Origin: Terriglobales bacterium
Lineage (GTDB): Bacteria > Acidobacteriota > Terriglobia > Terriglobales > Acidobacteriaceae
DNA length: 64,000 nt
Direction of reading: 5' to 3'
NCBI GenBank assembly: GCA_025934735.1
Contig: JAICWP010000023.1
Location: 1-64,000, forward strand
This document shows positions 45,353 through 63,746 of the stretch, piece by piece (within the stretch, counting starts at the first letter, position 1; each line of letters opens with the position of its first letter). The position numbers and the translations under genes were made by a program. The notes below the pieces were generated by a model that was given only the letters and a program-made list of their open reading frames with translations, searched no databases and was not told the origin of the DNA.

Positions 45353-45796
45353 TGAATGTGATGCGGCTAAGTAGCTGTTCGTTGTACGGCTTGCACGCCA
45401 AACGCCAAACTCAGGTACAAGCTTCGGTCACTCCGCAGAGCGCTGGCCCCGGCCGCCAGGCCAGGTTTGTGCCAGTTGCCAAGCCACATACCGCTGGCCG
45501 TAGGCGTACTGGGATGAACCAAACCGGTTCTGGCTTTATTCCCGCCCCCAACCGTCGGGTAAAAATTGCCAACGCTGGTGAAACACGCGGCTTGTAGCGG
45601 CAGAGAACCGGCACACCGAGAAATGGCATCCAGCAACTCTGGTGCGCACTCCGCATTCCACTTTTATACACCCGGGGCGAGCGGTGCATCTGGGTGACGC
45701 AGGGCAGGCCCGCAACCGAAATCATTTTCCACTCTTCCCCTTGACATTCTACAAGAGCAGCGGCATCCTTCTTGTCGTTTGTCTAGGGGAGGCATC
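45353..45796. other. Divergent intergenic region, no gene recognised
   Basis: This 444-bp gap separates the sigma-factor gene from the ADOP permease gene. It has a TTGACA at 45741-45746, but no clear -10 box follows at the right distance. On the minus strand a TATAAA lies near 45663. Small frames here have no recognisable product. Confidence 0.5.
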
Positions 45797-48469
45797 ATGC
45801 GCCTGCAAGCGCCCATTTCCGCTTGGCTGCGGTCGTTGTTCAACCGCCGCAAGATGAACGACGACCTGGCGGAGGAACTGCGCTTCCATCTGGAGCAGCA
45901 AATCGAGCAGAACGTCGCCGCCGGCATGGCGCCGGAACAAGCGCGCCGGCAAGCCGTGCTCGCCTTTGGCGGCCTTGAAAGCGTGAAGGAGGACTGCCGC
46001 GACCAGTGGGGCGCGCGCCTGCTCGATATCACGCTGAAGGACCTGCGTTACGCGCTGCGCGGCTTCCGCAAGAGCCCGGTGTTCACGCTGGCGGTGGTGT
46101 GCACCATCGCGCTAGGGATCGGCGCCACCACCGCCGTCTTTAGCGTGGTGGACCGCATCCTGTTCCGCAGCCTGCCTTACGCGCACGCCGAGCGCCTGGT
46201 TTCCGTGGGCATCACCGCGCCGATTGAGGACAACGAGTTCATGCTGGGCGCCAATTACGCCTACTGGCGAGAAGCCAAGTTGCCTTTTGATTCCATTACC
46301 TCCATGACCGCCTTCGATTCGGCCATGTCCACCTGCGATCTCACGGAATCGCATCCTTTGCGCTTGAGCTGCCTGCAAGTGGAATCGAATTTTTTGTCTA
46401 CCTTGGGACTGCGGCCGGTGGTGGGGCGCAATTTCGAGCCCGACGATAACCGCCCCAACGCGCCGGCGGTGGCGCTCATTTCTTCCGCCCTGTGGCAGAG
46501 CCGGTTCGGCGGCGATCCCGCAGCCGTGGGAAAGCTGATGTCCGTGGACGGCAAGCCGGTGCGCGTAGTGGGCGTGCTGCCACGCGATTTCGAAATGCCT
46601 ACTCTGGCCGCCGCGGACGTTCTCTTTCCGCAACATCTCGACTGGAACGCGCAGAAGACTTCCTATCCCGGAAGCGTGTTGCGCTGCTTTGCGCGCCTGA
46701 AGCCGGGAGTCACGATGGAGCAAGCCCGGGCGCAGTTGCAGCCGCTTTTTGCGGATACACTCAAGGGAGCTCCGCCGCAGTTTCGCAACGAAGTTCACCT
46801 GGTGGTGCGCTCCTTGCGCGATCGTGAACTGGGCGATTCCAGCCTTGCCGCCTGGGTGCTGCTGGCGGCGGTGCTGGCCGTGCTGCTGATTGCCTGCGCC
46901 AATGTGGCCAACCTGCTGCTGGCGCGTTCCGCCTCGCGGCAGCGGGAGCTGGCGGTGCGCGCCGCTCTGGGAGCGGGGAGAGCCCGGCTGATGTGGCAGG
47001 CCTTGAGTGAGAGCCTGGTGCTGGCGCTGACCGGAGGACTGGCGGGTTGCGCCCTAGGCTATGGCCTGCTGCGCGTTTTTATCGGCATCGCTCCCAAAGG
47101 CTTGCCCCGCCTGCCGGAGGCCGGGTTAGATCACCGGGTGCTGCTGTTCGCAGTGGCGATTTCACTCGCCTGCGGGATTCTGTTTGGCATGGTTCCCGCA
47201 CTGCACCGTGCGCCTGCGCAACTCGCCCTGGCGGGGACGCGTTCCAGCGCTGGTTCACGCGGCTTCTTCCGCCAATTCCTGCTGGTGGCGCAAGTGGCAA
47301 TTTCTCTGGTCCTGCTGGCCGGGGCCAGCCTGTTATTGCGCAGCCTTTGGAAGCTGCAGAATCAGCCGCTCGGCATGCGCACCGACAGCCTGCTGATGGC
47401 CGAGATGACTCTAGGGCAGAACCGCTATCCGCAGCCCGAACAGCAACTGGCATTCTTTGATCAGCTGGAATCACGGCTGCGGCGAGTGCCCGGCCTCACG
47501 GCGCTGGCGCTCAGCGATTCCATGCCTCCCGGCGGCTGGGAGCACTACCGCATCTACGCCGCCATTGCGGTGCGCGGCCAGCCGCGATTTGCCGAAGGCA
47601 CGGGCGGGCCGGTGGACTGGCGGGCGGTGACCCCGGACTATTTTTCCGCTCTCGGCATTCCGATTGTGCGTGGCCGCGGTTTTACCGAACGTGACCGCGA
47701 CCCCGACCAGCACGCCATCATTCTCAGCCAGACGCTGGCGCGGCGCATGTTTCCCGGGCGGGATCCCCTGGGGCAGCAGTTGCAGCCCGGCTTGGACGGG
47801 CCCTGGTACACCGTGATTGGCTTGGCCGGGGATGTGAAGAATGATGGTCTGGCGGTGCCCGCCTCGCCCGAGTATTACGTTGTGCGGCGACATGCCGGGG
47901 GCGCTTCCGCCGACCCTCCCAATTACGTCAACCATCATGTTTTCGTTCTCTTGCGCACGGGGATGAAAGCGGCTGGCATGGCCGAGTTGGTGCGCAGCGA
48001 TATCGCCGCCCTGGACCCGACACTGCCGGTGACCATAGACACCATGCGCCAGCGCGTAGGCCAGATGGAAGCTCGGCCGCGCTTCGACGCGGCGCTGCTC
48101 AGCCTGTTCGCAGGACTGGGAGTTCTGCTGGCCGCCATTGGAATTTATGGCGTGGTCGCCTATCTGGTAGCGCAGCGCACGCAGGAGATCGGCGTGCGCA
48201 TGGCCTTAGGCGCCAGCACCGGTGACGTTTTGCGCCTGGTGACGGGCAAAGGACTGGTGCTGATTGTGTCGGGCGCGGTAGTGGGCGTTGTCGCCGCGCT
48301 GGGAGTTTCGCGTTTGCTGACCAGCCTGCTGTTTGGCGTGCGCCCCGACGATCCGCTGACGCTTGGCGCGGCTGCCGGCCTGCTGGTCACGGTGGCGCTG
48401 CTGGCGACCTATATTCCGGCGCGCGCCGCAACCCGCATTGATCCCATGGTGGCGCTGCGCTACGAGTGA
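45797..48469 (+). CDS. ADOP-type ABC permease (MacB/FtsX-like, duplicated)
   Basis: The protein has about 890 residues from ATG 45797, with GGGGAGG a few bases upstream. An N-terminal segment (EELRFHLEQQIEQNVAAGM) is typical of Acidobacterial Duplicated Orphan Permeases. Two units of MacB-type periplasmic domain plus FtsX transmembrane domain follow, the first helix near KSPVFTLAVVCTIALGIGA and the final block EIGVRMALGASTGDVLRLV. No ATP-binding subunit is encoded nearby, as usual for this group. Its substrate is unknown. A PadR regulator follows, separated by a REP-like element. Confidence 0.93.
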   Translation: MRLQAPISAWLRSLFNRRKMNDDLAEELRFHLEQQIEQNVAAGMAPEQARRQAVLAFGGLESVKEDCRDQWGARLLDITLKDLRYALRGFRKSPVFTLAVVCTIALGIGATTAVFSVVDRILFRSLPYAHAERLVSVGITAPIEDNEFMLGANYAYWREAKLPFDSITSMTAFDSAMSTCDLTESHPLRLSCLQVESNFLSTLGLRPVVGRNFEPDDNRPNAPAVALISSALWQSRFGGDPAAVGKLMSVDGKPVRVVGVLPRDFEMPTLAAADVLFPQHLDWNAQKTSYPGSVLRCFARLKPGVTMEQARAQLQPLFADTLKGAPPQFRNEVHLVVRSLRDRELGDSSLAAWVLLAAVLAVLLIACANVANLLLARSASRQRELAVRAALGAGRARLMWQALSESLVLALTGGLAGCALGYGLLRVFIGIAPKGLPRLPEAGLDHRVLLFAVAISLACGILFGMVPALHRAPAQLALAGTRSSAGSRGFFRQFLLVAQVAISLVLLAGASLLLRSLWKLQNQPLGMRTDSLLMAEMTLGQNRYPQPEQQLAFFDQLESRLRRVPGLTALALSDSMPPGGWEHYRIYAAIAVRGQPRFAEGTGGPVDWRAVTPDYFSALGIPIVRGRGFTERDRDPDQHAIILSQTLARRMFPGRDPLGQQLQPGLDGPWYTVIGLAGDVKNDGLAVPASPEYYVVRRHAGGASADPPNYVNHHVFVLLRTGMKAAGMAELVRSDIAALDPTLPVTIDTMRQRVGQMEARPRFDAALLSLFAGLGVLLAAIGIYGVVAYLVAQRTQEIGVRMALGASTGDVLRLVTGKGLVLIVSGAVVGVVAALGVSRLLTSLLFGVRPDDPLTLGAAAGLLVTVALLATYIPARAATRIDPMVALRYE

Positions 48470-48587
48470 GGTGATCCGCTCGGTTGGAGTCGAAGCTCTA
48501 CGCTCACTGGAGTCATGCTGAGACCCTTCCGTGCCGAAGCATCTCGCGTGCAGCGCCGCTTCAGCGGACGTTCAAGTTGGACGCTGG

Positions 48588-48655
48588 CAGCGGTTCACCA
48601 CCAGCCCCGATGGGGCGTCATAGTAGAGCCCAGGGCGGCAGCCCTGGGTAGGTGA
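48588..48655. repeat. REP-like double hairpin between permease and PadR genes
   Basis: GCCCCGATGGGGC is followed by CCCAGGGCGGCAGCCCTGGG. The layout matches the elements at 238, 1438 and 6181, although the sequences differ. Confidence 0.65.
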
Positions 48656-48710
48656 CAAATATAAATTCGAGGCCCGGAGGGACGGCACTCGTCTCCTATT
48701 CGGAGGAAGA

Positions 48711-49040
48711 ATGAACCAAGCAGTGGACCTGCTGCAGGGCACGCTCGACCTGCTGATCCTGAAAACGCTGGCGCTAGAGACGATGCATGGTTGGGGCATC
48801 GCCCAGCGCATCCAGCAGATTTCCCAAGACGCGCTGCAGGTGCAGCAGGGTTCCTTGTATCCGGCGCTTCATCGGCTTGAGCAGCAGGGCTGGATCGAGG
48901 CCGAGTGGCGGCCCTCGGAAAACAACCGCCGGGCGAAGTATTATTCGCTCACCCGCGCGGGCCGCAAGCAACTGGAAGTGGAAACCGCGAACTGGGAACG
49001 GCTTTCGGCGGCAATCCGGCAGATTCTGCAGACGGTTTGA
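48711..49040 (+). CDS. PadR family transcriptional regulator
   Basis: This 109-residue PadR protein has the winged helix ([38 protein letters not shown]) and the recognition segment [16 protein letters not shown]. PadR proteins repress genes for transport and stress response. In acidobacteria they commonly accompany ADOP permeases, usually upstream; here it is about 240 bp downstream of the permease. GGAGG lies about 7 bases before the ATG. The C-terminus ends in a short helix. Confidence 0.92.
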
Positions 49041-50639: not shown

Positions 50640-50737
50640 AAATTCGAGTTTCAAGTTTCGAGTTTCAAGCCCAACCCGGCGCGGGACCGGAAACTTGAAA
50701 CCCGAAACTTCGCAACCTTAAAACCTTGAAACCTTAC
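50640..50737. repeat. GTTTCAAG-word hairpin
   Basis: GAGTTTCAAGTTTCGAGTTTCAAG on the left faces GGAAACTTGAAACCCGAAACTT on the right, over a GC-rich loop. It continues as AACCTTAAAACCTTGAAACC up to the stop of the next minus-strand gene (50734). Confidence 0.7.
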
Positions 50738-51381
50738 TGCTTGGCCGGCGGAATCTGGGTGGCGGGCCGGTTGGCGTCCTGCTGGTGTATGCGGTCAATA
50801 TCCTGGTTGGTATAGACCTTGGCAGGGGGATGCGCCTGCTCCCAGGCTCGGATTGCGGCTGCCGCCTGCGCCAGGTTCTCCGGAGTTGCGGGAATGCTGG
50901 TGGCATTGTCGAACGCCGCCGCCCCCGTATTGAGAAACTTCTCGGGCATATTGCGCGCCATCATCATTCCGTGCGGGCCAGGGCGCATCATCGGGTGTCC
51001 ACCCATGCGCGCTGCCAAGGGCACAAAAGGCCGCGGTCCGATCAGCGGGGAAACCGCCCCCTCGACCGTGGGCTGGCCGCTCACGCTTACCAGGGAGACG
51101 GCCGGCGGCGCCATATTGGCGCTGCTGCTCAGTCCCATGTTGCTGATGGAAAGCGTGGCGTTGGTAGCGCCCGCGACATTGCCCGGGGTGGCGTTGCTGG
51201 CTCCTGCTGGCGATACGGAAACACCATTCAGGCTCAGGATGGGAGCGCTGACAACCGGATAGTTGAACTGATCCCAAAACAGGTGGTTGCTGGCAAAGCC
51301 GGTGTTGGTGACCCAGGTCTGCCCAAAGGCTGATACTACCGCGAAACTCAAGAACGCCACTGCGATTAGCCCGCGACGCAT
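50734..51381 (-). CDS. Secreted low-complexity protein, unknown
   Basis: This protein of about 215 residues has a signal peptide (LIAVAFLSFAVVSAFGQ). The mature part is low in charge and rich in Ala, Pro, Ser and Asn, with a Met/His/Pro/Gly patch (GGHPMMRPGPHGMMMARNM) near the middle that could bind metal. No family is recognised. The start at ATG 51381 has GGAGG about seven bases upstream. It stands alone between the MFS gene and a ThiF-like gene. Confidence 0.7.
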   Translation of the reverse strand: MRRGLIAVAFLSFAVVSAFGQTWVTNTGFASNHLFWDQFNYPVVSAPILSLNGVSVSPAGASNATPGNVAGATNATLSISNMGLSSSANMAPPAVSLVSVSGQPTVEGAVSPLIGPRPFVPLAARMGGHPMMRPGPHGMMMARNMPEKFLNTGAAAFDNATSIPATPENLAQAAAAIRAWEQAHPPAKVYTNQDIDRIHQQDANRPATQIPPAKQ

Positions 51382-51449
51382 AATGTCCTCCCGCCCGGCT
51401 GGTTGGCTGGGCGTGGGCAAATCTTAAAGTATTGCCTAGGGGAAAGTCA

Positions 51450-52466
51450 CTAACTTCCTATATAGCGGGCATATAGGCTTCTGGCCACTGCGGTATCGGA
51501 AGTGCCTTTTATGATCGCCCTGCCATCCGGAAACAGCGTCATTTCATAGGGTTCGTGCCAGAACTTGAGCACGAACTCATTGTGGCGGACGGCGCCGTGG
51601 GGCTTAAGCCGTTCACTGATAAGGGCAAAATCCATGGGACGGGAGGACTCGTGAATCTGGACGGAATTACGCCCGCACAGCGTTAGGTGTGGCCGGCCCT
51701 CGCCCGCCAGGTGAATGAGTTCCCGGCGTCCGCAGCAGCGGCAGTCAGGACGGGGAGTTCCCGCCTGGATGGCCGAGGTCTGGTTGCTCCAAACGTCCCA
51801 GGAGAGCAGGGTGCGACGCATTTGCTCGCGGGCGCCAACCAGCAGCTTGAGCGCTTCCGCGGCGGCTACGGAGGCGAGCAGGCTGACCGCCGGGCCTAGC
51901 ACGCCGGCGGTTTCGCAGGTCTCCAGCATACCCTGTGGCGCCTCCGGAAACAGGCAGGCCAGGCACGCGGTTTCGCCGGGCAGGACGTTCATGGTGAGCC
52001 CATAGCTGCCAACCGCCGCGCAATAGATCCACGGCAGCCCGCGCTGCACGGCAAAATCGTTCAGCAGGTAACGGGTCTCGAAATTGTCAGTGCCATCGAG
52101 CAACAGCTGAGTTCCTGCGAGAAGGCGCTCAATGTTTTCCGGCACGAGGTCAGCGACCTCAGGTTCGACCACAATTTCAGAGTTGAAGGCCGCGAGCTTA
52201 CGGGCGGCGGCGATCGCCTTGGGCAGGGAAGCGGCGGCATCGGCTTCATCGAACAGCGCCTGGCGCTGCAGGTTGCTGGGCTCAACATAGTCGCGGTCAA
52301 TAATGCGCAGCGTGCCCACCCCGGCGCGCGCCAATAATCCGGCGAGGATGGAACCGGTGGCGCCGCAGCCGACAATCGCCACCCGCGCCTGTGCCAGCCG
52401 GCGCTGGCCCTCGGCCCCAATGCCGGGAAACAGAATTTGCCGCGAGTATCGCTCCTCGAAACTCAA
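51450..52466 (-). CDS. ThiF/MoeB/HesA family adenylyltransferase
   Basis: This 338-residue E1-like enzyme adenylates the C-terminus of a ubiquitin-like sulfur carrier. The nucleotide-binding loop (VAIVGCGATGSILAGLLARAG), IDRDYVEPSNLQRQ and DGTDNFETRYLLND are canonical. The zinc Cys pairs lie in CLACLF and CRCCGR, and CETAGVLGP holds the likely catalytic Cys. There is no rhodanese domain; instead a short C-terminal domain of about 90 residues follows. No thiS or moaD is adjacent, so thiamine, molybdopterin or another sulfur pathway is possible. Confidence 0.9.
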   Translation of the reverse strand: MSFEERYSRQILFPGIGAEGQRRLAQARVAIVGCGATGSILAGLLARAGVGTLRIIDRDYVEPSNLQRQALFDEADAAASLPKAIAAARKLAAFNSEIVVEPEVADLVPENIERLLAGTQLLLDGTDNFETRYLLNDFAVQRGLPWIYCAAVGSYGLTMNVLPGETACLACLFPEAPQGMLETCETAGVLGPAVSLLASVAAAEALKLLVGAREQMRRTLLSWDVWSNQTSAIQAGTPRPDCRCCGRRELIHLAGEGRPHLTLCGRNSVQIHESSRPMDFALISERLKPHGAVRHNEFVLKFWHEPYEMTLFPDGRAIIKGTSDTAVARSLYARYIGS

Positions 52467-52726: not shown

Positions 52727-55700
52727 TTGGCGGTAAGGACAGGGTTTGTCCGGACACTCGCGATGGTGGCGATGCTGGCAGCAGCCGGTGTGGTGCGCCC
52801 TGCCCTGGCGCAGGGCCGGGATGCGGCGGCAACCTCCGAGCTGCGCCCGCGGCAATCTCCCGCGTCCACGCAGGAAACGGTTCTCTCCAAACCGGCTTCC
52901 GATTCCGTTCCCGCCTCCGATGCGGCGCCGCTGGGCATCGTCTCGGAATACCAGGGTCTTCCGGTGCGCGACATCCGCTTTGCCGGGGTGGAAAGCGGTG
53001 ACCTGCAGCAACTGCAAAAGGTGGTGACGCAAAAAGCCAACCAGCCCCTGGACCGCTACAAAATTCGCGACAGCGTGCGCGCCCTGTTCGCCACCGGCCG
53101 CTTTGCCGATGTCCAGGTGGAGGCGGACCGCACGCCGCAAAACCAGGTGGACCTGGTTTTCCGGGCGGTGCAGAACTACTTTGTGGGCGTGGTCAGGGTG
53201 GAAGGCGCACCCCGCGAGCTCACCACCACGCAGCTGGCCAATGCCAGCAAGCTGCAGCTGGGCGAACTTTATACCCAGGAAAAACTCCAGAGCGGCATTG
53301 ACCGCATGGGCCAGCTCCTGCAGGAGAACGGGTATTACCAGGCCACCATTACCGAGAGCGAGCAGCGCGATGCCGCCACCCAGCAGGTGAACATTTCTTT
53401 TCATGTGGACCCGGGGGCGCAGGCGCGGGTGGGCCGCATCACGCTCACCGGACATGCCGGATTCACGCTCCTGGAACTGCTGAATGCGGCGCACTTCCAT
53501 CCCGGCGACCGCGTGCTCACCCAAAACCTGACCAGCACCCTGCGCCGCTTGCGGAAGAAATACCAGAAGATCAATCGTTTGGAGGCGCAGGTCTCCATAC
53601 CCACCCAGAGTTACCAGCCCGCCACCAACACCGTCGACTATGTTTTAAATATCGAGCCCGGGCCCACGGTGATCATCCGCGTGCAAGGCGTGGGCATGCG
53701 CGCCAGCGAAATCAAGAAGCTGATTCCGGTATACGAAGAGAACGCGGTGGATGAAGACCTGGTGAACGAAGGCCGGCGCAACCTGCGCGACTACATGCAG
53801 ACCCACGGCTATTTCGATGCGGAAGTGAACGTTCGCCGCGATTTCGACGAGAAAAAGAATGAGCGGCAGATTGTCTACATTGTCGAACGGGGCATCCGGC
53901 ACAAGCTCACCAACATCAACATCAGCGGTAATTCTTATTTCGACAGCGGCATGATCCGCGAGCGCATGCAGGTGCAGCCCGCCGGCCGGCTGTTCTCGCA
54001 GGGCATGTACAGCCAGCAGCTGCTGGCCGGCGACGTCAACGCCATTCAGAATCTGTACCACGCCAACGGTTTCCAGCAGGTGAAGGTTACGCCCGCTGTC
54101 CACGACAATTACCTGGGGCAGATCGGGCGGATTGCCATAGACATCCGCATTGACGAGGGCCCGCAGACGCGAGTGGGCACGCTGCGTATCGTGGGCAACA
54201 AGACCGTGCCCGAGCAGGACCTGCTGCCCAACCTGTCCAACGTGGAGGGACAGCCGTTTTCGCAGGCCAACATTGCCGCCGACCGTGATGCCCTCCTGAC
54301 CTACTACTTCAACAACGGCTTTCCCGACGCCGCCTTCGAATACACCGCCCAGCCCGAGCCGGGCGCACCCGACCGTGTGGATCTGGCCTACACCATCCGC
54401 GAAGGGCAGCAGTTCTTTGTGGACCGGGTGCTGGTGGACGGCCTGAACTATACCCGGCCATACGTGGTGCGCCGCGAGTTGCAGATTCATACCGGCGATC
54501 CGATCAGCCAAAACCAGATGTACGACAGCCAGAGCCAGCTCTACAACCTGGGCATCTTCAACGAGGTGGACACGGCGGTGCAGAATCCGGAGGGCGACGT
54601 TCCCAACAAGAACGTGCTGTTCAGCGTCCAGGAAGCGCGCCGCTATACGTTCAACTACGGCATTGGCTTTGAAGCGCAGACCGGGCAGCCTGCCGGCCCG
54701 ACGCAGCCGCAGGGAGAAACCGGAGTGAGCCCGCGCGTGTCATTTGGCGTGACCCGCCTGAACTTCCGCGGGCGCGACCACACTATTTCCTTCAAGTCGC
54801 ACGTTGGGCGCCTGGAGCAACGCGCCCTGGTCAGTTACGACGCGCCCCACTGGTTTAACAATGATAAGTTGAGGCTCACCTTCGCCGCCTTCTATGACAA
54901 TTCGCTCGACGTTGTCACCTACACCTCTAACCGGCTGGAAGGCTCGGCGCAAATCGAGCAGAGCTGGAGCAAGGTGACGACAACGCTTTACCGCTTTACC
55001 TACCGCCGGGTTCAGGCCACCAACCTGGTGCCGCTCTCACCCAACCTGTTTCCCCTGCTTTCGCAGCCGGTGCGCGTCGGCATGCCTAGCTTCACCTACA
55101 TTCGTGACAAGCGCGACAATCCCATCGAGACCACTCGCGGCAACTACACCACCTTCGACGCCGGCGTGGCGGCTGGTTTCTTTGGCTCTGAAGCCAGTTT
55201 CAGCCGCATGCTGGTGCAGAACGCGACCTACATGCCGTTTGGCTCGACCCGCAGCAAGAACAAATGGGTATTCGCCCGCTCCACCACCATCGGCGTGGAA
55301 AACCTGTTCGGCAAAGGCGAGGTAATTCCGTTGCCGGAACGCTTCCTCTCTGGCGGCGGCAACACACTGCGCGGGTTTGCCATTAACCAGGCGGGGCCGC
55401 GCGACCCGGCTACCGGCGCTCCCCTGGGCGGAGACGCGCTTTTCATCAATAACCTGGAAGTGCGCACGCCTACGGTGTCGCTGCCGTGGCTGGGCAACAA
55501 CATGGGATTTGTGGTGTTTCACGATGCCGGCAATGTCTTCTCCTCACCCAACGAGTTGGCCAAGGGGCTGGCCCGCTGGAACCAGGACACCAGCCATTGC
55601 TTTGTGGGCAGCCTGAGCTGCAATTTCAATTATCTGTCCCAGAACCTGGGGGCGGGCGTGCGCTACAAGACGCCCATTGGCCCACTGCGCTTCGACGTGG

Positions 55701-55825
55701 GCTACAACTTGAATCCGCCGGTTTTTCCCGTGAACCAGGCCACCGGCGACCAGGCCTCCCCTTTTCCCCATGTGGAGACTGGCCGCCATATAAACTTTTT
55801 CTTTAGTATTGGACAGACATTCTGA
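52727..55825 (+). CDS. Omp85/BamA-family outer-membrane assembly protein with seven apparent POTRA domains
   Basis: This 1032-residue Omp85 protein inserts or exports proteins at the outer membrane. A signal peptide ends near PALAQ (29). By eye, seven POTRA domains follow at about residues 79-148, 152-230, 233-312, 314-389, 391-479, 481-561 and 562-637. BamA usually has five and TamA three. The C-terminal ~390 residues form the 16-strand barrel, with LRGF (about 880) as the VRGF/Y motif and a final Phe (FSIGQTF). The start is TTG 52727 with AAGGAG six bases upstream. The next gene overlaps its stop (TGATG). It may combine BamA- and TamA-like roles. Confidence 0.92.
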   Translation: MAVRTGFVRTLAMVAMLAAAGVVRPALAQGRDAAATSELRPRQSPASTQETVLSKPASDSVPASDAAPLGIVSEYQGLPVRDIRFAGVESGDLQQLQKVVTQKANQPLDRYKIRDSVRALFATGRFADVQVEADRTPQNQVDLVFRAVQNYFVGVVRVEGAPRELTTTQLANASKLQLGELYTQEKLQSGIDRMGQLLQENGYYQATITESEQRDAATQQVNISFHVDPGAQARVGRITLTGHAGFTLLELLNAAHFHPGDRVLTQNLTSTLRRLRKKYQKINRLEAQVSIPTQSYQPATNTVDYVLNIEPGPTVIIRVQGVGMRASEIKKLIPVYEENAVDEDLVNEGRRNLRDYMQTHGYFDAEVNVRRDFDEKKNERQIVYIVERGIRHKLTNINISGNSYFDSGMIRERMQVQPAGRLFSQGMYSQQLLAGDVNAIQNLYHANGFQQVKVTPAVHDNYLGQIGRIAIDIRIDEGPQTRVGTLRIVGNKTVPEQDLLPNLSNVEGQPFSQANIAADRDALLTYYFNNGFPDAAFEYTAQPEPGAPDRVDLAYTIREGQQFFVDRVLVDGLNYTRPYVVRRELQIHTGDPISQNQMYDSQSQLYNLGIFNEVDTAVQNPEGDVPNKNVLFSVQEARRYTFNYGIGFEAQTGQPAGPTQPQGETGVSPRVSFGVTRLNFRGRDHTISFKSHVGRLEQRALVSYDAPHWFNNDKLRLTFAAFYDNSLDVVTYTSNRLEGSAQIEQSWSKVTTTLYRFTYRRVQATNLVPLSPNLFPLLSQPVRVGMPSFTYIRDKRDNPIETTRGNYTTFDAGVAAGFFGSEASFSRMLVQNATYMPFGSTRSKNKWVFARSTTIGVENLFGKGEVIPLPERFLSGGGNTLRGFAINQAGPRDPATGAPLGGDALFINNLEVRTPTVSLPWLGNNMGFVVFHDAGNVFSSPNELAKGLARWNQDTSHCFVGSLSCNFNYLSQNLGAGVRYKTPIGPLRFDVGYNLNPPVFPVNQATGDQASPFPHVETGRHINFFFSIGQTF

Positions 55826-56514
55826 TGTTGCGGCGCTGTTTCCAAATCGGGGTGGTGCTGGCTTTAGCCGCAAGCGCGGCCATGGCTGGCGACATCATCG
55901 AGCGCGTGGTGGCCACGGTGAACAACCGGCCCATTCTGCAGAGTGATTGGGATGAGGAAGTGCGTTACGAAGCCTTTGTCAACCATCGGTCGCTTTCCCG
56001 CGTGACGTTGGCCGACCGCAAGGCGGCGCTGGACCGGCTGATTGACCAGGAATTGCTGCGCCAGCAAATCAAGGAAGACGAAGCAGAGGGAGTGCTGGCA
56101 GAGTCTCCTCCGCACATCGAAACCCGCCTGCAGGAGGTTCGCAAGCAGTATCCGGGCGCGGAGAAGCCGGCCACCTGGCAAGCTGACCTGCGGGAGTACG
56201 GGCTGAGAGAGCAGGACCTGATACGGCACGTCGCGCTGCAGGCGCAGCTGGAAAAGCTGATTGACGTGCGCCTGCGGCCCACCGTGCACATCAGCCACAC
56301 TACCATCGAGGCTTACTACCGGGATCAGCTGCTGCCGGAGTTGCGCAAGGCCGGGGTCAAGGATGTTCCCCTGGTGGAAGTTTCCCCCAAAATCGAGGAA
56401 CTCCTTACGCAGCGGCAAATGAACCAGCTGCTGGCCGCCTGGCTGCACGACCTGCGTTCACAAAGCGATATTCGGATGGGCGCCGCGCCTGAGGCGGGAG
56501 TCAGCCAGAGATGA
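55825..56514 (+). CDS. SurA N-terminal domain protein without a PPIase domain
   Basis: This 229-residue protein has a signal peptide (VVLALAASAAMAGD). The mature part matches the SurA N-terminal chaperone domain: IIERVVATVNNRPILQSDWDEE, then RKAALDRLIDQELLRQQI and a helical end. The parvulin-type PPIase domains of SurA are missing. Periplasmic chaperones of this kind hold outer-membrane proteins before insertion. Its ATG overlaps the Omp85 stop and its TGA overlaps the tamB ATG (ATGA), so all three are translationally coupled. Confidence 0.87.
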   Translation: MLRRCFQIGVVLALAASAAMAGDIIERVVATVNNRPILQSDWDEEVRYEAFVNHRSLSRVTLADRKAALDRLIDQELLRQQIKEDEAEGVLAESPPHIETRLQEVRKQYPGAEKPATWQADLREYGLREQDLIRHVALQAQLEKLIDVRLRPTVHISHTTIEAYYRDQLLPELRKAGVKDVPLVEVSPKIEELLTQRQMNQLLAAWLHDLRSQSDIRMGAAPEAGVSQR

Positions 56515-59500
56515 GCAGCAGCGTTCATCCCGGTTCTTCGCCGGCCGAAGGCCACAGCGGGCCGCCGCGCAAGCGCCTCATTCTGCCCGCCACCGTCGGC
56601 ATTCTTGTGCTCGCGGCTTTTCTGCTCGCGGGATGGTACCTCACCAGCGCCGGTTTCCAGGAACGGGTGCGGTCGCGCGTAGTGGCCGAACTGCAGCGCT
56701 CCACCGGTGGTCGAGTCGAACTCGGCGCTTTCCAGTGGAACCTTTCGCAGCTGCAGTTCGAAGCCCGTAATCTGACCATTCACGGGCGCGAAGGGGCCGG
56801 GGAACTGCCCTTCTTCCATGCCGACCAGGTGCTGGTCCGGATGCGCGTCGCTTCCGTGTTCAGCCAGCGCGTGGCTTTGAGCTACATGCAGGTGGACCAC
56901 CCCGTGATTCACCTGGTGGCCTATCCCGACGGCACCACCAACCAGCCCCAGCCCAGCGCCCGCCCGCCCACTTTGCAGGCCGACGTGGAACAGTTGTTCC
57001 GGCTCGCGGTGCACCGGTTGGATGTGCGTGGCGGGGAGCTTGTGCTCAATGATCGCAGCGTTCCCCTCGACCTCACCGCCGATGACGTGACCGCCAACAT
57101 GGACTACGCCTTCCGGCCGCGCCGCTATGACGGCCGGGTAAGCATCGGCAAACTGGATACGCGGCTGAAGGACATGCGGCCGTTTGCCTCCCGCGCCGAT
57201 CTTGAGTTCACCCTGTGGCCCAGTTGGGCGCAGGTCAAGTCGCTGCATTGGACTTCCGGCAAGTCGCACCTGGAAATCAGCGGACATGTGGATAACTTCA
57301 GCCGTCCCGCCCTGACCCTCGCCTATCAGGGTGCGGTGGATGTAGCGGAATTGGGAGCGGTTCTGCGGCGGCGCGAATTGCGCTCCGGCACCGCCGCCGT
57401 GCAAGGCAATGCCGGTTATCAGCTCGGCAACTATCTGGCCAGCGGACGCGTGGAGGCCTCAGACCTGCAAGTAAGCGCGCCCTCAGGCATGGTGCGCCAC
57501 GCCAGCCTCGGAGGAGAGTATTCGCTGAGCAACGACCGTGTGGAGCTCTCCGGTGTTTCCGGCCATGCCCTGGGAGGCAAGCTCAGCGGCGACCTGCAAA
57601 TCGTGTACCTGGTTGAGCCCACGGTCCGAGCTCCGCATCATGTGTTGCCTCCGTCTCCGGGGGAAGAGCGCGGCACGGCTCACCTGCGCCTGGAAGGCGT
57701 ATCGGTGGCCCAGCTTACACAGAGCGTCTCCACGCGCTCATTTCCGGTAGGAGGTTTGGGTCTGGCCGGAACCGCTTCGGGGACAGTCGAGGCGGGCTGG
57801 CGGGGCACTCCGAGCAATGCCGACGTAAAGATGAATCTCGCTGTGTTGCCGACGCCGGGCAGGCAGCCTGGCCAGTTGCCGGTGAATGGGCAGGTGCAGG
57901 CCAGCTACAGCGGCTCCCGGCATCTGCTGACCTTTTCGCAGCTGAACGCGGCCACGCCAGCCAGCACTGTGACCGCCAGCGGTACGTTGGGCTCGTCCTC
58001 GGCGAACCTCAGCCTGAATCTGGCGACCACGAATCTGGGTGAACTGCAACCCATCCTGGCGGCTTTCCAGGGCCCTCGGCACATTCCGCTTGTGGTACAC
58101 GGAAAAGCTGTGTTTTACGGCGCCGTTGCCGGCAAGATTTCCGCTCCCACTTTCACCGGGCACCTGCTGGTGACGGATTTCGATACCGTACTGCGCCCTG
58201 GTGCCCGCGGGATTTCCAAAGCGCCGCGGCAAATTCATTGGGACCTGCTGAGTAGCGATGTGCAGCTCTCGCCGGACAAGCTGGTTACCCGGCACGGCAT
58301 TCTGCGGCGCGAACCGGCGCAGCTGTCTTTTGACGGCAGCCTTGGCCTGACGCGGTATCAAACTACCCCTGCCGGTGCTCTCTCCGCCCAGGTGCGGGTG
58401 CAGGGCGGCGAACTCGCTGATGTGGTGGCGCTGGCGGGTTACAGCTATCCGCTCTCCGGCGAGCTGAATGCCAGGCTGCAGGTCGGTGGCACGTGGCAGG
58501 CGCCGCGCGGCGAGGGCGAGATTGAGGTGGCGCATCCGGCCTATGCCAGCGCGCGCTTCAATCGCCTGAGCGCGCACCTGCTCTTTTCCGGAAGTCAGGT
58601 TCAGCTGAATAACCTGAACCTTGCCCAGGGCCCGAGCCAGATCACGGGCGCCGCCGGTTACGACTTCCGCAGCACGGAGCTGCACTTCAATTTGCAGGGC
58701 GGCAATTTTGATCTGGCGAAATTCTCCTCTTTGCAGAGCAGCCGCATTACGGTAGCGGGGCAGATGGGGTTTTCGCTGCAAGGGTCGGGGACGCTGCGGG
58801 CACCCGTCATTGACGGCACCATTAACCTGCGACAGCTCACGCTGGACGGCGAACGCGAGGGCGACTTCGCCCTGACCGCGAACACCCACGGCTCTAGCAC
58901 CCGCCTGGTCGGCCGCTCGCAGTTCATCCACGCCGACCTCGGCCTGGATGGCGACCTCCGGCTGCAGGGCGATTTGCCCATTCAAATGACGCTGCGCTTC
59001 TCCCGCCTGGACGTGGATCCCCTGCTGCAGGCCTATTTCCGGGGGCAGCTCACTGGTCATTCCTCGAGCGCCGGAACCATTACTGTGAACGGGCCGCTGC
59101 TCCGGCCTCGCGATCTGGAAATTCGAGGCAATGTGGCGGAGTTCCGCGCCGATATCGAGAATCTCAAAATCCAGAACAGCGGTCCTCTGCAATTTGCCGT
59201 GGCGCAGCGCACCCTGACCCTGCAGCACTTTCACCTGCTGGGGGACGGCACGGATTTTGAGGCTACGGGCACCGCCCAGCTGGCTGCGCCGCAGGTGTTG
59301 AATCTGCGCGCGAACGGCACCATCAATCTGAAAATCGTGCAAACTCTGAACCCGGATTACATGTCCTCGGGCCTCATGACCGTGGCCCTGGGCTTTGGCG
59401 GGACCATGGCCGCTCCGGACGTGCGCGGGCGGGTGCAGATCAGCAACGGATCGCTTGCCTATATTGACCTGCCCAGCGGGCTCAGCAACATCAATGGCAC

Positions 59501-60575
59501 CCTGGTGTTCAATCAGGACCGGCTGCGGGTGCAGACGCTGACCGCGCAGACCGGCGGCGGGCTGCTCAACCTGGGCGGGTTCATTACCTACAATCGGACC
59601 CTGAACTTCGACCTGACCGCCCAGGGCAAGGACATACGCCTGCGCTACCCGCCAGGCATGAGCACCACCGCCAACGTCAACCTGCGGCTGGTGGGAGCGC
59701 TCAACCGCTCCACTCTCACGGGCGACATTCTGGTGACGCGTTTTCAGCTGGCCCGCAACTTCGATTTGGCCAGCTACCTGGCCCGCGCCAAGGGCTCTAC
59801 CGCGCTGCCCAATCCTGAGTCTCCGCTCAACAATTTGCGGCTGGACGTCCACGTAATCACCACGCCTGAACTGGACGTGCAGACCGCAATTGCCCGGGTG
59901 GCTGGCGATGCGGACCTGCGCCTGCGAGGTACAGCAGCCAAGCCCGTGGTCCTGGGCCGGGTGGATATTGCCCGCGGCGATGTGAACTTCAGCGGAACCA
60001 AATACCACCTGGAGCGCGGTGACATCACTTTCAGCAACCCGGTCCGCATCGAACCGGTGCTCGACCTGGAGGCTAGCGCCCGGGTGCGGGATTACGACAT
60101 CACCCTCGGCTTCCACGGGCAGATTGATAAGCTCAACGCCACCTACAGCTCGGAGCCGCCGCTGCCCACCGCGGACATCATCGCCCTGCTGGCCATGGGC
60201 CGTACCCGCGAAGAATCGGCGCTTTTGCAGCAGCAGCCCGACACCAGCTACACCCGCAGCGCTTCCAACGCCATCCTCAGCGAGGCCATGAACGCGGCCA
60301 ACAACAACCGCCTGGAGAAGATTTTTGGCGTCAGCCGGGTGAAGATTGATCCGGAAGCGGGCGGGGCGGAAAACAACCCGAGCTGGACACGCGTCACCAT
60401 CGAGCAGCAGATCTCGAACGCCCTCACTCTTACCTACATCACCAACGTTTCCCAGGCGCAGCAGCAGATAATTCAAGCCGAGTACTACCTGACCCGCAAC
60501 ATCTCCCTCATCGCCCTGCGCGACCAGAACGGCGTGGTCAGCTTCGATATCAGCATCCGGCGTCGCAAGAAATAG
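56511..60575 (+). CDS. tamB: TamB family translocation/assembly protein
   Basis: This 1354-residue AsmA/TamB-type protein has a single N-terminal transmembrane helix (about residues 23-43), a very long beta-rich groove domain and the C-terminal DUF490/TamB domain (EASARVRDYDITLGFHGQID, IIALLAMGRTREESALLQQ, then ISIRRRKK). TamB bridges inner and outer membranes; it works with an Omp85 partner and may also move phospholipids. The partner here is encoded by the first gene of the same operon. A large antisense frame across it is a by-product of high GC. Confidence 0.92.
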   Translation: MSSSVHPGSSPAEGHSGPPRKRLILPATVGILVLAAFLLAGWYLTSAGFQERVRSRVVAELQRSTGGRVELGAFQWNLSQLQFEARNLTIHGREGAGELPFFHADQVLVRMRVASVFSQRVALSYMQVDHPVIHLVAYPDGTTNQPQPSARPPTLQADVEQLFRLAVHRLDVRGGELVLNDRSVPLDLTADDVTANMDYAFRPRRYDGRVSIGKLDTRLKDMRPFASRADLEFTLWPSWAQVKSLHWTSGKSHLEISGHVDNFSRPALTLAYQGAVDVAELGAVLRRRELRSGTAAVQGNAGYQLGNYLASGRVEASDLQVSAPSGMVRHASLGGEYSLSNDRVELSGVSGHALGGKLSGDLQIVYLVEPTVRAPHHVLPPSPGEERGTAHLRLEGVSVAQLTQSVSTRSFPVGGLGLAGTASGTVEAGWRGTPSNADVKMNLAVLPTPGRQPGQLPVNGQVQASYSGSRHLLTFSQLNAATPASTVTASGTLGSSSANLSLNLATTNLGELQPILAAFQGPRHIPLVVHGKAVFYGAVAGKISAPTFTGHLLVTDFDTVLRPGARGISKAPRQIHWDLLSSDVQLSPDKLVTRHGILRREPAQLSFDGSLGLTRYQTTPAGALSAQVRVQGGELADVVALAGYSYPLSGELNARLQVGGTWQAPRGEGEIEVAHPAYASARFNRLSAHLLFSGSQVQLNNLNLAQGPSQITGAAGYDFRSTELHFNLQGGNFDLAKFSSLQSSRITVAGQMGFSLQGSGTLRAPVIDGTINLRQLTLDGEREGDFALTANTHGSSTRLVGRSQFIHADLGLDGDLRLQGDLPIQMTLRFSRLDVDPLLQAYFRGQLTGHSSSAGTITVNGPLLRPRDLEIRGNVAEFRADIENLKIQNSGPLQFAVAQRTLTLQHFHLLGDGTDFEATGTAQLAAPQVLNLRANGTINLKIVQTLNPDYMSSGLMTVALGFGGTMAAPDVRGRVQISNGSLAYIDLPSGLSNINGTLVFNQDRLRVQTLTAQTGGGLLNLGGFITYNRTLNFDLTAQGKDIRLRYPPGMSTTANVNLRLVGALNRSTLTGDILVTRFQLARNFDLASYLARAKGSTALPNPESPLNNLRLDVHVITTPELDVQTAIARVAGDADLRLRGTAAKPVVLGRVDIARGDVNFSGTKYHLERGDITFSNPVRIEPVLDLEASARVRDYDITLGFHGQIDKLNATYSSEPPLPTADIIALLAMGRTREESALLQQQPDTSYTRSASNAILSEAMNAANNNRLEKIFGVSRVKIDPEAGGAENNPSWTRVTIEQQISNALTLTYITNVSQAQQQIIQAEYYLTRNISLIALRDQNGVVSFDISIRRRKK

Positions 60576-60785: not shown

Positions 60786-61550
60786 ATGAGAAAGATGGCA
60801 GTCTACTTTCCGGCCGTGCTGCTGGCCCTGGTTTTATCGGTGCCCGCGCTGGCCAAGAGTGATTCTAATGGCGGCAAGTACGACCAGGGAATCCAGAACA
60901 GCATGCAGAAGTGGCTGCAGGATCACGGCAGCAAATTCAGCGGTGTGCAAGCCTCAGTGCAGGACGGCGTGGTTACGCTCACCGGCGAGGTGCCGCTGCT
61001 GATTGACAAACTGGACGCCGATAAGCACGCTCACGGCATTGACCACGTGCAGGCCGTGCGCAATGAGATCCAAGTGAAGGGTGGGGTTTCCGACCAGCAG
61101 TTGCAGGAGCAACTGGCCGGCAAGCTCCGTTACGACCGCATCGGCTATGGCGTCATTTTCAATTCCCTCACCTTAGGCGTCAACAATGGGATCGCCACCG
61201 TGGGCGGCAGCGTGCACGATTATCCCAGCCGGGATTCCGCCCTGGCCATCGTGGAGACTACTCCGGGCGTGCGCGGCGTGGTGGACAACATCCAGGTGCA
61301 ACCCACCTCGAACTTCGATGATGCACTGCGCATCCGCCTGGCGCAGGCCATCTACGGTCAGCCGGCGATGCAGAAGTACGCCATGGTTCCGGAGGCGCCA
61401 ATCCGCATCGTGGTCAATAACGGCCACGTAACCCTCAATGGCGTGGTAGACAGCCAGATGGATAAGCAGATCGCAGAAACCCAGGCCAAGGCCGTGCCGG
61501 GAGTTTTCAGCGTGGATAACCAGCTGATGGTAGCGGGGAAGCAGAAGTAA
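60786..61550 (+). CDS. Exported BON-domain protein
   Basis: It has about 254 residues from ATG 60786, with a signal peptide (FPAVLLALVLSVPALAKSD). At least two, probably three, BON domains are visible (VQDGVVTLTGEVPLLIDKLD, VNNGIATVGGSVHDYPSRDS and VNNGHVTLNGVVDSQMDKQI). BON domains bind phospholipid surfaces in the periplasm, so the protein probably helps keep the envelope intact, in keeping with the preceding TAM/BAM-like operon. A hairpin repeat starts right after its stop codon. Confidence 0.88.
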   Translation: MRKMAVYFPAVLLALVLSVPALAKSDSNGGKYDQGIQNSMQKWLQDHGSKFSGVQASVQDGVVTLTGEVPLLIDKLDADKHAHGIDHVQAVRNEIQVKGGVSDQQLQEQLAGKLRYDRIGYGVIFNSLTLGVNNGIATVGGSVHDYPSRDSALAIVETTPGVRGVVDNIQVQPTSNFDDALRIRLAQAIYGQPAMQKYAMVPEAPIRIVVNNGHVTLNGVVDSQMDKQIAETQAKAVPGVFSVDNQLMVAGKQK

Positions 61551-61649: not shown

Positions 61650-62510
61650 GTGCCCATCCTGCACAACCTGCGCACGACCCTGGAAATGATCAAGTGGGAG
61701 CACTCGATTTTTGCGCTCCCCTTCGCACTCTGTGGCGCCATGCTGGCGGCCGGAGGCTGGCCCACGGTCTGGCAGCTGGGCTGGATCATTGTGGCCATGG
61801 TAGCGGCGCGGTCGGCGGCCATGGCTTTCAACCGCCTCGCCGATGCCGAAATTGACGCCATCAATCCGCGCACCCAGACGCGCGCCTTGCCCAGCGGAGC
61901 CCTGTCCCGCGGGTTCGTGGGCGCCTTCGTCACGGTAGCGTGCCTGGTGTTCGTGCTGGCGGCCTCGCAGTTGAACCGCCTCACCCTGCTGCTCTCGCCG
62001 GTCGCCCTCGCGATTGTGCTTCTCTACTCCTATACCAAGCGCTTTACCCGCTGGTCGCACCTGGTGCTGGGATTTGCCCTGGGGGTGGCGCCCAGTGCCG
62101 CCTGGATTGCGGTGCGCGGCTCGCTCGATCCCCGCATCCTGCTGCTCACGGCGGCGGTTACCTTCTGGGTAGGCGGCTTTGACGTGCTCTATGCCTGCCA
62201 GGATTATGATTTCGACGTGCGCAACCAGCTGCACTCCATCCCTCGCTACCTGGGCATTGGACCCGCTCTGCTGATTGCCCGCCTCTTCCACGCCGCCATG
62301 ATGCTCCTGCTGGTTGCCCTGGTGCTTAGCTTTCACCTGGGCGCGCTGGGGCTGGCCGGTGTCGCGGTGGTCGGCCTGCTGCTGGCCTACGAGCACTCGC
62401 TGGTTTCCCGCGACAATCTCAGCCGGCTGAACGCCGCGTTTTTCACCATGAATGGAGTGATCTCGGTGGTGTTCTTCCTGTTCGTGGCGGCCGACCTGCT
62501 GCTGAAGTAG
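61650..62510 (+). CDS. mqnP: UbiA-family prenyltransferase, probable menaquinone MqnP
   Basis: This 286-residue membrane enzyme with about nine helices attaches a polyprenyl chain to an aromatic acid. The first Asp-rich motif is [23 protein letters not shown] and the second is [15 protein letters not shown]. The gene stands directly before mqnE, so it is very likely MqnP of the futalosine menaquinone pathway, not UbiA or MenA; this choice rests on context. Start is GTG 61650 with a TACAAT just upstream. The substrate polyprenyl diphosphate would come from the synthase at 346-1335. Confidence 0.88.
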
Positions 62511-62545
62511 CTGACTAGCTGCCTGGCTGGATAGCTGCCTGGTTT
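62506..62545. repeat. TAGCTG-word repeat overlapping the mqnP stop
   Basis: TAGCTGACTAGCTGCCTGG and CTGGATAGCTGCCTGG repeat from the mqnP stop codon (TAG, 62508-62510). The same words occur between tatD and metG. Confidence 0.65.
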
Positions 62546-62579
62546 CTCTCGCTTCGCCTGCATCGCGTCATACTCACCT

Positions 62580-63746
62580 GTGACGAACCCGAGGCTGCTG
62601 CGCTATCATCATTACGTGGCCTCGACGCATCCGTTCCAGACTGATGACGCGCGCTTGCAGCCTATTGCTGAGAAGGTCCTGAGCGGGCAGCGGCTCAGCG
62701 GCGATGACGCGCTCACCTTGTACGCTTCCCCCGACATTCTGGCCGTGGGCTGGCTGGCTAACCAGGTGCGCGAGCGCCTGCACGGCGACAACACCTATTT
62801 CAACGTCAACCGCCACATTAATCCCACCAATGTCTGCGTGGCCGCTTGCCGGCTGTGCGCATTTGGCCGCAAAAAGGACACTCCCGGCGCCTATACTATG
62901 GCCCTGGAAGAAGCCTGGCAGACCGCGGCTTCCGGCTATAGCGAGGCGGTCACCGAGTTCCACATCGTCGGAGGGCTGCATCCCGACCTGCCGTTTCAGT
63001 ACTTCCTTGACCTGATTCGCGGGCTCAAGGAGCGCTTTCCCAGCGTGCACCTGAAGGCCTTCACCATGGTCGAGGTGGCGTATTTGGCGAAACGCGCCAA
63101 GCTCTCCATCCGCGAAACGTTGGAGCAGCTCAAGGCCGCGGGCGTGGATTCATTGCCCGGCGGGGGAGCGGAAATTTTTGCCGACCGCATCCGCCACATG
63201 ATCTGCGATCATAAAATTGATGGCGACCAGTGGCTGGAGACGGCGCGCACCGCCCACCAGCTTGGCCTGCGCTCCAACGCCACCATGCTCTACGGGCACA
63301 TCGAGAGCGACGAGGACCGCGTGGACCACCTGCTCAAATTGCGGGCTTTGCAGGACGAAACCGGCGGATTCCAGACCTTTATCCCGCTGGCGTTCCATCC
63401 CGCGAACACCCCGCTGGAGCACTTGCCCACCACCACCGGAATGCTCGACCTGCGCCAGATCGCGGTGAGCCGCCTAGTGCTGGACAACTTCCCTCATATC
63501 AAAGCTTATTGGCAGATGCTGACCCCGCGCATCGCGCAAATCTCGTTGCGCTTCGGCGCCGATGACATGGATGGCACCGTAATCGAAGAGAAGATTTATC
63601 ACGATGCCGGCGCCACCACACCTCAGGGATTACGGCGCCAGGATCTGGAGCGGTTGATCCGCGAAGCCGGCCGCGTGCCCGTAGAGCGCGATACGCTCTA
63701 CCGCCCGGTCACCCGTACGGAAACGACCGTCACTGTGGGCGTGTAG
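62580..63746 (+). CDS. mqnE: Aminofutalosine synthase, radical SAM (MqnE)
   Basis: MqnE is a radical SAM enzyme of the futalosine route to menaquinone. It forms aminofutalosine from SAM and carboxyvinyl-oxybenzoate. The cluster motif CVAACRLC (CX3CX2C) lies near residue 88 after NRHINPTNV. Other matches are FHIVGGLHPDLPFQYF, GGGAEIFADRIRHMICDHK and SNATMLYGHIESDEDRV. Length is 388 residues from GTG 62580. A second GTG at 62616 (VASTHPFQT) is preceded by TATCAT at the right distance to be leaderless, so the true start may be there. It lies 70 bp after mqnP. Confidence 0.94.
   Translation: MTNPRLLRYHHYVASTHPFQTDDARLQPIAEKVLSGQRLSGDDALTLYASPDILAVGWLANQVRERLHGDNTYFNVNRHINPTNVCVAACRLCAFGRKKDTPGAYTMALEEAWQTAASGYSEAVTEFHIVGGLHPDLPFQYFLDLIRGLKERFPSVHLKAFTMVEVAYLAKRAKLSIRETLEQLKAAGVDSLPGGGAEIFADRIRHMICDHKIDGDQWLETARTAHQLGLRSNATMLYGHIESDEDRVDHLLKLRALQDETGGFQTFIPLAFHPANTPLEHLPTTTGMLDLRQIAVSRLVLDNFPHIKAYWQMLTPRIAQISLRFGADDMDGTVIEEKIYHDAGATTPQGLRRQDLERLIREAGRVPVERDTLYRPVTRTETTVTVGV

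Follow-up and report, generated by a model that had tools for sequence, protein, structure and literature searches.

A SurA-type chaperone core encoded with a seven-POTRA Omp85 protein and TamB in Acidobacteriota suggests a three-component envelope machine

We analysed a stretch of 64,000 nucleotides (hereafter, the window) at the start of contig JAICWP010000023.1 (C41 in our numbering) of a Terriglobales bacterium of the phylum Acidobacteriota (assembly GCA_025934735.1, 4.94 Mb in 50 contigs, 99.83% complete), focusing on three genes of its + strand that encode an Omp85-family protein, a short relative of the chaperone SurA and TamB. The TamA-like Omp85 gene (52727..55825) has a TTG start and encodes 1032 amino acids matching PF07244 seven times, PF01103 and TIGR03303. 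It is followed by the gene of a 229-residue SurA core chaperone (55825..56514), for which we coined the name SurN, and by tamB (56511..60575), whose product of 1354 amino acids carries PF04357 and one N-terminal hydrophobic segment. The stop of the Omp85 gene and the start of SurN overlap by 1 nucleotide (TGATG), and SurN and tamB by 4 nucleotides (ATGA). A preliminary description, made from the letters alone, had noticed a SurA-type gene without the peptidyl-prolyl isomerase (PPIase) domain overlapping each of its two neighbours, and both overlaps proved correct. They suggest that the three proteins may be made in fixed ratio.

The Omp85 protein consists of a signal-peptide-like start, seven POTRA domains and an Omp85 barrel. 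Pfam PF07244 covers seven stretches (E 2.7e-71), PF01103 spans residues 679-1032 (54761..55822), and a whole-genome POTRA scan found seven places in this protein, every one above the curated cut-off. The count of seven, made by eye in the preliminary description, is also given by a home-made POTRA profile and by structure prediction, and each domain rests on all three bases: POTRA1 (52964..53164), POTRA2 (53183..53416), POTRA3 (53429..53662), POTRA4 (53675..53893), POTRA5 (53912..54160), POTRA6 (54173..54406) and POTRA7 (54419..54634). The profile was seeded with 16 POTRAs of the same genome and used with a lenient threshold of 3 bits. It counts seven in the window protein and five in the genome's BamA, and in controls it found 5/5 in E. 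coli BamA and two positive in E. coli TamA with the third at -1.7 bits, so that it may miss some domains. The AlphaFold2 model covers residues 60-660 and consists of seven consecutive beta-alpha-alpha-beta-beta units; it was built from 5 aligned sequences (mean predicted local distance difference test score, pLDDT, 78.2; predicted template modelling score, pTM, 0.40), and its domain folds are usable and their relative placement is not, because of the low pTM. Seven POTRAs were also found in 52 of 54 window-type proteins (OmpI) with the same profile and threshold, the other two being a split frame (L055) and a fragment at a contig start (L073).

We also compared these domains with those of BamA by means of POTRA profiles, from which we dropped those two proteins, one protein of a second family (OmpII, see below) with six POTRAs found (L109), and 8 fusion and 3 trio proteins with a count other than 5 or 7. 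Window-type POTRA1 is, of the seven, the closest to BamA POTRA1, and POTRA7 pairs with BamA POTRA5. POTRA5 and POTRA6 resemble BamA POTRA3 and POTRA4 about equally, the best score of POTRA2 and of POTRA3 is with BamA POTRA4, and POTRA4 has the least likeness to BamA; the divergent POTRA of the acidobacterial seven is the third according to Heinz et al. 2015 (PMC4494059). Among NCBIfam models, the protein passes the BamA equivalog TIGR03303 (392.6 against a cut-off of 297.15) and fails the TamA model NF047950 (86.5 against 625) and the TamL model NF052279 (90.4 against 400). It has the barrel (PF01103) and POTRAs (PF07244) expected of the Omp85 partner in the translocation and assembly module (TAM), with seven POTRAs instead of the three of TamA sensu stricto or the five of BamA.

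The preliminary description had proposed that the locus could be an ancestral machine combining the roles of TAM and of the beta-barrel assembly machinery (BAM). The BamA equivalog score and the likeness of POTRA1 and POTRA7 to BamA POTRA1 and POTRA5 speak in its favour. However, the genome contains three Omp85 genes, namely the window copy, OmpII on contig C38 and, on contig C5, that of a 930-residue protein which has five POTRAs and whose gene is followed by one for OmpH/Skp, in other words an ordinary BamA. BamA has five POTRAs in this genome and in 20 relatives (21/21, home-made profile), with a nearby Skp gene in the same orientation at 19 of the 21 loci. In a FastTree phylogeny of 99 sequences, based on the last three POTRAs and the barrel and with the class-level Omp85 proteins subsampled to 25, acidobacterial BamA forms one clan (support 1.0), to which E. 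coli BamA attaches (0.891), and the Omp85 proteins of the trio, of OmpII and of the fusions described below lie in a separate clan (0.987), so that the window protein does not group with BamA. In this split E. coli TamA is placed with the TamB-linked proteins, but weakly, because its branch is long. With a dedicated BamA and Skp elsewhere and the window protein in another clan, the ancestral form does not hold up, and we regard it as very improbable.

The OmpII gene of contig C38 forms a second Omp85-TamB pair with no gene in between (locus L018, 1938-9034 on its reversed strand). Its POTRA count depends on the method, Pfam finding 5 places and the lenient home-made profile 7.

SurN has a signal-peptide-like start and matches only SurA N-terminal families in Pfam, below their cut-offs; no Pfam match to a rotamase (PPIase) domain was found in it. 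A profile-profile alignment of 53 SurN with 20 acidobacterial SurA sequences (20 of 21 regions, as L129 had no SurA match) gave E 9e-21 and aligned both the N-domain and the C-terminal helix, with the roughly 110 PPIase residues between them absent from SurN. In the window protein the helix comprises residues 183-213 (56371..56463, + strand), directly after the N-domain, at the place where canonical SurA carries the PPIase. In genome scans with the SurN profile, the match to canonical SurA ends near position 163 and in several cases resumes near 170 in the same frame, as expected because the PPIase is inserted there. The AlphaFold2 model of SurN (4 sequences, mean pLDDT 83.2) has as its best match SurA in the electron cryo-microscopy (cryo-EM) structure of BAM-SurA (8pzv_F; 169 residues, root mean square deviation 3.1 A) at Z 14.0, a value that counts for less in helical proteins, where Z 13-14 can arise by chance, even if the top rows here are nonetheless SurA-type chains. 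Another SurA fragment scores within 1 Z of this match, which makes a tie, and PrsA (9.9) and PpiD (9.6) come behind. The N-terminal chaperone domain and C-terminal helix of SurA are thus present in SurN and the parvulin PPIase domain is not, so that by alignment and model SurN is a SurA core lacking exactly that domain. This does not exclude a SurA-like function, because SurA proteins without PPIase are known. A PPIase-containing SurA is also encoded in the same genome, on contig C48.

We also looked for the trio in other genomes. The surveys of SurN and of fusions cover Acidobacteriota, and named control genomes of other phyla were scanned with the Pfam families, SurN not included. Class-level relatives belong to the same family, order or class and those of other classes to the same phylum only, and the genomes in the co-occurrence counts are not independent. 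In the genome under study and 60 relatives, some SurN match was present in 54 of 61, and a match reaching the C-terminal helix in 50 by hand tally, leaving out a partial one (G048). The class-level loci comprised the window and 49 loci from 48 relatives chosen for a SurN match, with G050 left out. SurN directly follows Omp85 in all 50, an arrangement that is not due to chance, and TamB comes next in 49, the remaining locus being at a contig end. The named relatives found by sequence are metagenome-assembled genomes of Terriglobia, Acidobacteriaceae and Candidatus Sulfotelmatobacter; among four loci from named relatives, three have the trio (L004-L006) and the fourth stops with Omp85. The coupled module seen in the preliminary description is therefore conserved. 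An ordinary bamA elsewhere together with a poorly conserved gene order was named there as what would speak against the idea; such a bamA exists, but the gene order is conserved.

Across 149 genomes of the phylum, a SurN-type match was found in at least 75 (hand tally), leaving out a 345-residue frame (G184) and partial matches (G134, G191, G199); stop codons interrupt six of the 75 (G083, G092, G095, G116, G123 and G186, the last of which also has an intact frame of 235 residues). TamB is present in all 75 by hand tally among the matches listed. In at least 52 of them SurN and TamB share a contig and are no more than 10 kb apart, and in four further genomes (G148, G113, G061, G104) SurN lies beside an Omp85. 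The 20 loci from other classes, fetched for SurN-TamB linkage, all have the trio, with 6-7 POTRAs detected, in the order TamB-Omp85-SurN in 18 and Omp85-SurN-TamB in 2. In the TamB-less genomes (18 in the phylum sample and 3 in the class), only canonical SurA was found in 20 of 21. As a separate observation, unlinked SurN-type genes occur in several families (L196, L197, L198, L199, L203, L205, L207, L208 and L210).

The TamB of the window has a clear PF04357 match (E 6.5e-47, above the cut-off) over the C-terminal DUF490 domain (59535..60560, + strand), and its hydrophobicity peak begins at residue 23; a TamB with DUF490 and a single N-terminal membrane anchor, as expected for TAM, is thus encoded alongside the Omp85. 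In some relatives the two are a single protein. Open frames of 2000 or more amino acids contain a TamB match in at least 35 of the 149 genomes (hand tally), and the same frame contains an Omp85 match in 34 of these 35 (the exception is G104), which gives fusions in at least 34 genomes. We fetched 19 of the 35 together with that of a class-level genome (G052), and all 20 are single chains of a TamB body, POTRAs and an Omp85 barrel, 1964-2401 residues long with 4-7 detectable POTRAs; that of G086, fetched separately, has 2428 residues. Examples of the fusions are L152:4495-10590 (2031 residues), L156:5414-11620, L168:4337-10585 and L195:3782-11068. Pfam confirmed the TamB, POTRA and barrel domains in 4/4 fusions tested. 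A strong hydrophobic segment lies within the first 120 residues in 16 of the 20, one in each; among the other four, L163 and L167 have it deeper in the chain, either before the TamB match or where this match begins, L166 begins at a contig end and L157 shows none. Such natural fusions point, indirectly, to a possible physical TamB-Omp85 complex. In the tree they do not form one clan, on deep branches that are weakly supported, and because they fall outside a single clan, repeated fusion or splitting of TamB and Omp85 is suggested.

These observations also bear on whether the window Omp85 could be just a redundant second BamA copy, its neighbours conserved by operon inheritance alone and with no joint function. 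Automatic annotation would indeed call the protein BamA, and gene overlap by itself is no proof of a complex. Both the occurrence of the identical trio in two arrangements within the phylum and the TamB-Omp85 fusions outside a single clan argue in the opposite direction, and we give this explanation very little credence. Rather, because the trio is kept in many relatives, and Omp85 and TamB are one protein in some, comparison of the genomes points to one membrane-building machine, not three loose parts.

In the 12 fusions with exactly five POTRAs, profile comparison shows these to correspond in order to window-type POTRA3-7, the first matching POTRA3 best; the matching is clear for the first, second and last and narrow for the other two. 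No SurN gene was found in the stretches around the 20 fetched fusions. We examined 37 fusion-bearing or suspected genomes, that is, the 35 with a long frame (including the unconfirmed fusion of G104), G052 and G204, whose shared frame of 1400 residues is probably cut by a contig end. SurN is present in 16 of them and was not found in 21. Among these 21, the 14 fusions fetched all have 4-5 detectable POTRAs, and the genome has a single TamB match in 17 and two in 4. The fusions of G096 and G086, which belong to one family, have seven POTRAs, and both genomes have an unlinked SurN. Fusions with 4-5 POTRAs in SurN-bearing genomes (G052, G068, G106, G113, G156) are accompanied by a further TamB listed in each.

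Taken together, we favour, with a confidence that goes only slightly beyond indecision, a three-component TAM-like envelope machine in which the SurN core serves POTRA1-2 of Omp85 and clients bypass BAM. Its basis by sequence and predicted structure is the seven POTRAs, the missing PPIase, the SurA-core fold and the trio in two gene orders, with SurN-TamB co-occurrence and TamB-Omp85 fusions in the same phylum as a further basis; from these we infer SurN docking, the identity of the clients and the working of the TamB groove. TamB would be anchored in the inner membrane, with its groove running to the outer membrane, and its C-terminal domain would make contact with both the barrel and the POTRAs of the seven-POTRA Omp85. 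SurN would be a dedicated periplasmic chaperone and putative binder of unfolded beta-barrel clients; in the way known for SurA and BamA, its N-terminal strand would extend POTRA1, so that SurN docks at the two outermost POTRAs (1-2). Clients might then pass from SurN to POTRA1-2 and the barrel, beside the TamB bridge, reaching Omp85 without BAM. This path is suggested by published findings: the SurA core docks on BamA POTRA1-2, with residues 23-28 of the mature N-terminus of E. coli SurA added to the POTRA1 edge strand and a salt bridge between BamA R64 and SurA D41 at the docking site (PMC11970506, PMC11366764), the last strand of TamB pairs with the first barrel strand of TamA in cryo-EM (PMC12800296), and Borrelia TamB binds the BamA POTRAs (PMC11361582). 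The position of E. coli SurA D26 is acidic in 53/53 class-level SurN proteins, indicating that the start of the mature chain is kept, and that of D41 is D or E in 46/53; on the Omp85 side, the unit most like BamA POTRA1 is likewise the first.

We considered the R64-D41 salt bridge as a conserved docking signature, which the window sequence had led us to expect, and rejected it. The window Omp85 does have Arg at the R64 position, but just 15 of 52 class-level homologues share it, which weighs against docking of this kind, and so do 3/17 Omp85 proteins of other classes, 1/10 OmpII and 1/21 BamA. The main published contact between SurA and BamA is through the backbone, which is not readable from sequence.

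Apart from this and from the caution on the Z score, other observations weigh against the three-component machine. SurN lies away from TamB and Omp85 in 19 of the 75 genomes, among the matches listed, some of them at contig edges. Six of the 19 were checked and five (G073, G117, G143, G103, G149) have a TamB-Omp85 pair, with seven POTRAs detected in G103 and six in G149, and the 17 kb that we fetched from G165 contain TamB and no Omp85. For as many as 56 of the 131 genomes with TamB, no SurN-type match is among those listed. One TamB-less genome (G069) has a weak SurA-like candidate of 279 amino acids (C1:30063-30596, match 42-214, E 1.7e-7). The 11 OmpII-TamB pairs (C38 and L101-L110) lack an intervening SurN, and ten of their Omp85 proteins have seven POTRAs by the lenient home-made profile. 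A second TamB match occurs in the SurN-less fusion genomes G065, G070, G079 and G093. Finally, fusion-only genomes lacking both POTRA1-2 and SurN fit docking, and loss of linked genes as a block gives the same picture, so that the absence of SurN there may be mere block loss; the family of G086 and G096 is the more telling case.

The same data can be read to mean that SurN is a private assembly chaperone that maintains the TamB groove or the newly made Omp85 barrel in solution until the two meet, and that delivers no clients. Its gene stands next to, or between, the genes of just these two proteins, with overlaps in the window, and in 17 of the 21 fusion-bearing or suspected genomes (of 37) without SurN the fused TamB is the only TamB match. 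On the other hand, SurN persists with the seven-POTRA fusions of G086 and G096 and where it is unlinked, and its fold matches are SurA cores, the best of which is poised on BamA. We consider this role unlikely, if still worth bearing in mind.

A more distant alternative is a phospholipid conduit made of the TamB groove with Omp85 as exit, in which the SurA core regulates or braces POTRA1-2 and there are no protein clients. TamB/AsmA-like proteins have been implicated in anterograde phospholipid transport (PMC10665443, PMC12800296), and a single-chain TamB-Omp85 would fit a bridge. Against this, the fold and sequence of SurN belong to a protein-binding chaperone family, and we hold a pure conduit to be improbable. 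The role of TAM itself is debated between protein insertion, lipid transport or both (PMC11014939).

Compared with known systems, the Omp85-TamB pair is not new. Heinz et al. 2015 (PMC4494059) described a second acidobacterial "BamA" that shares an operon with TamB and in some cases has seven POTRAs, and proposed it as the likely origin of TamA. Our locus agrees with theirs in the second Omp85 beside TamB, in seven POTRAs in some members and in branching with TamA, and differs in the third gene and the fused form, which are additions here; the words "SurA", "chaperone", "fusion" and "fused" are not in the main text of that paper. We found no report in the open-access literature of a SurA gene linked to tamB, nor of a natural TamB-Omp85 fusion.

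In proteobacterial TAM the Omp85 and TamB genes are likewise adjacent and overlapping (E. coli tamA 4442382-4444115, tamB from 4444112), TamA having three POTRAs (PMC4104836) instead of seven and a SurA core; no SurA-like gene was found between or beside the genes of the E. coli tamA-tamB operon. With E. coli BAM-SurA (PMC11366764, PMC11970506) the trio shares the SurA core fold and POTRA1 as the published docking site, and it differs in that SurN lacks the PPIase and is encoded with its TamB partner, docking here being proposed by analogy. TamL-TamB of Bacteroidota (PMC12045153) also pairs an Omp85 with TamB outside Proteobacteria, but TamL is a lipoprotein and the window Omp85 falls below the TamL cut-off (90.4 against 400). 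In the hybrid BAM-TAM of Borrelia (PMC13382580, PMC11361582) TamB likewise works with a BamA-type Omp85, at whose POTRAs and, according to modelling, barrel edge the two meet; there the partner is a five-POTRA BamA and TamA is absent, whereas here BamA is separate. SurA proteins with one or no PPIase are known in Alphaproteobacteria, for example in Brucella (PMC2635482); there the short form is the organism's SurA, and here a PPIase-containing SurA is kept and the short form stands in the TamB operon.

Around the trio, a BON-domain protein (60787..61550, + strand; PF04972 in three stretches) follows tamB, as the preliminary description said, with its start inferred from sequence. Its coupling to the operon is unsupported, because the likelier start, 60787, lies behind a purine-rich stretch 211 nucleotides past tamB. 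We therefore rejected it as an operon member; it is probably a separate unit, a neighbour outside the module. A scan of promoters and terminators gave counts close to shuffled means, and both promoter-like sites were on the minus strand. Downstream of the BON gene, at 61650-63746, lie genes for a UbiA-type prenyltransferase and a radical-SAM protein of the CofH/MqnC type, a pair that we take to resemble quinone biosynthesis; such genes follow the trio in a number of relatives as well. Just upstream of Omp85 and divergent from it is a ThiF-family gene (51450-52466, - strand), present also in 38 of 49 fetched class-level loci, and before it a gene for a secreted-looking protein of 228 residues (50734-51420, - strand) with no Pfam match and weak homologues near the trio in 5 of the 49. 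Further upstream, 45779-49040 presumably encodes, judging from the translations, a large MacB/FtsX-like permease and then a PadR-like regulator.

In conclusion, the one-chain TamB-Omp85 proteins indicate that 1:1 coupling is viable and offer an object to purify and image. The dedicated SurA core in the operon suggests unfolded barrel proteins as clients, since it is not obvious why a bridge for lipids alone would need such a chaperone. Moreover, the contrast within the phylum, between seven POTRAs with SurN and fused proteins with mostly about five POTRAs and no SurN, makes the role of the outer POTRAs testable directly in soil bacteria. We advance as a tentative proposal, for which we would not claim an even chance, that SurN is a genuine third TAM subunit on POTRA1-2, that several lineages have TamB-Omp85 as one chain of about 2000-2400 residues reaching across the envelope from the inner membrane to the outer, and that fusion-only lineages without POTRA1-2 have lost the chaperone. 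If true, TAM would be a chaperone-fed trans-envelope conduit, with 1:1 coupling proved by covalent examples.

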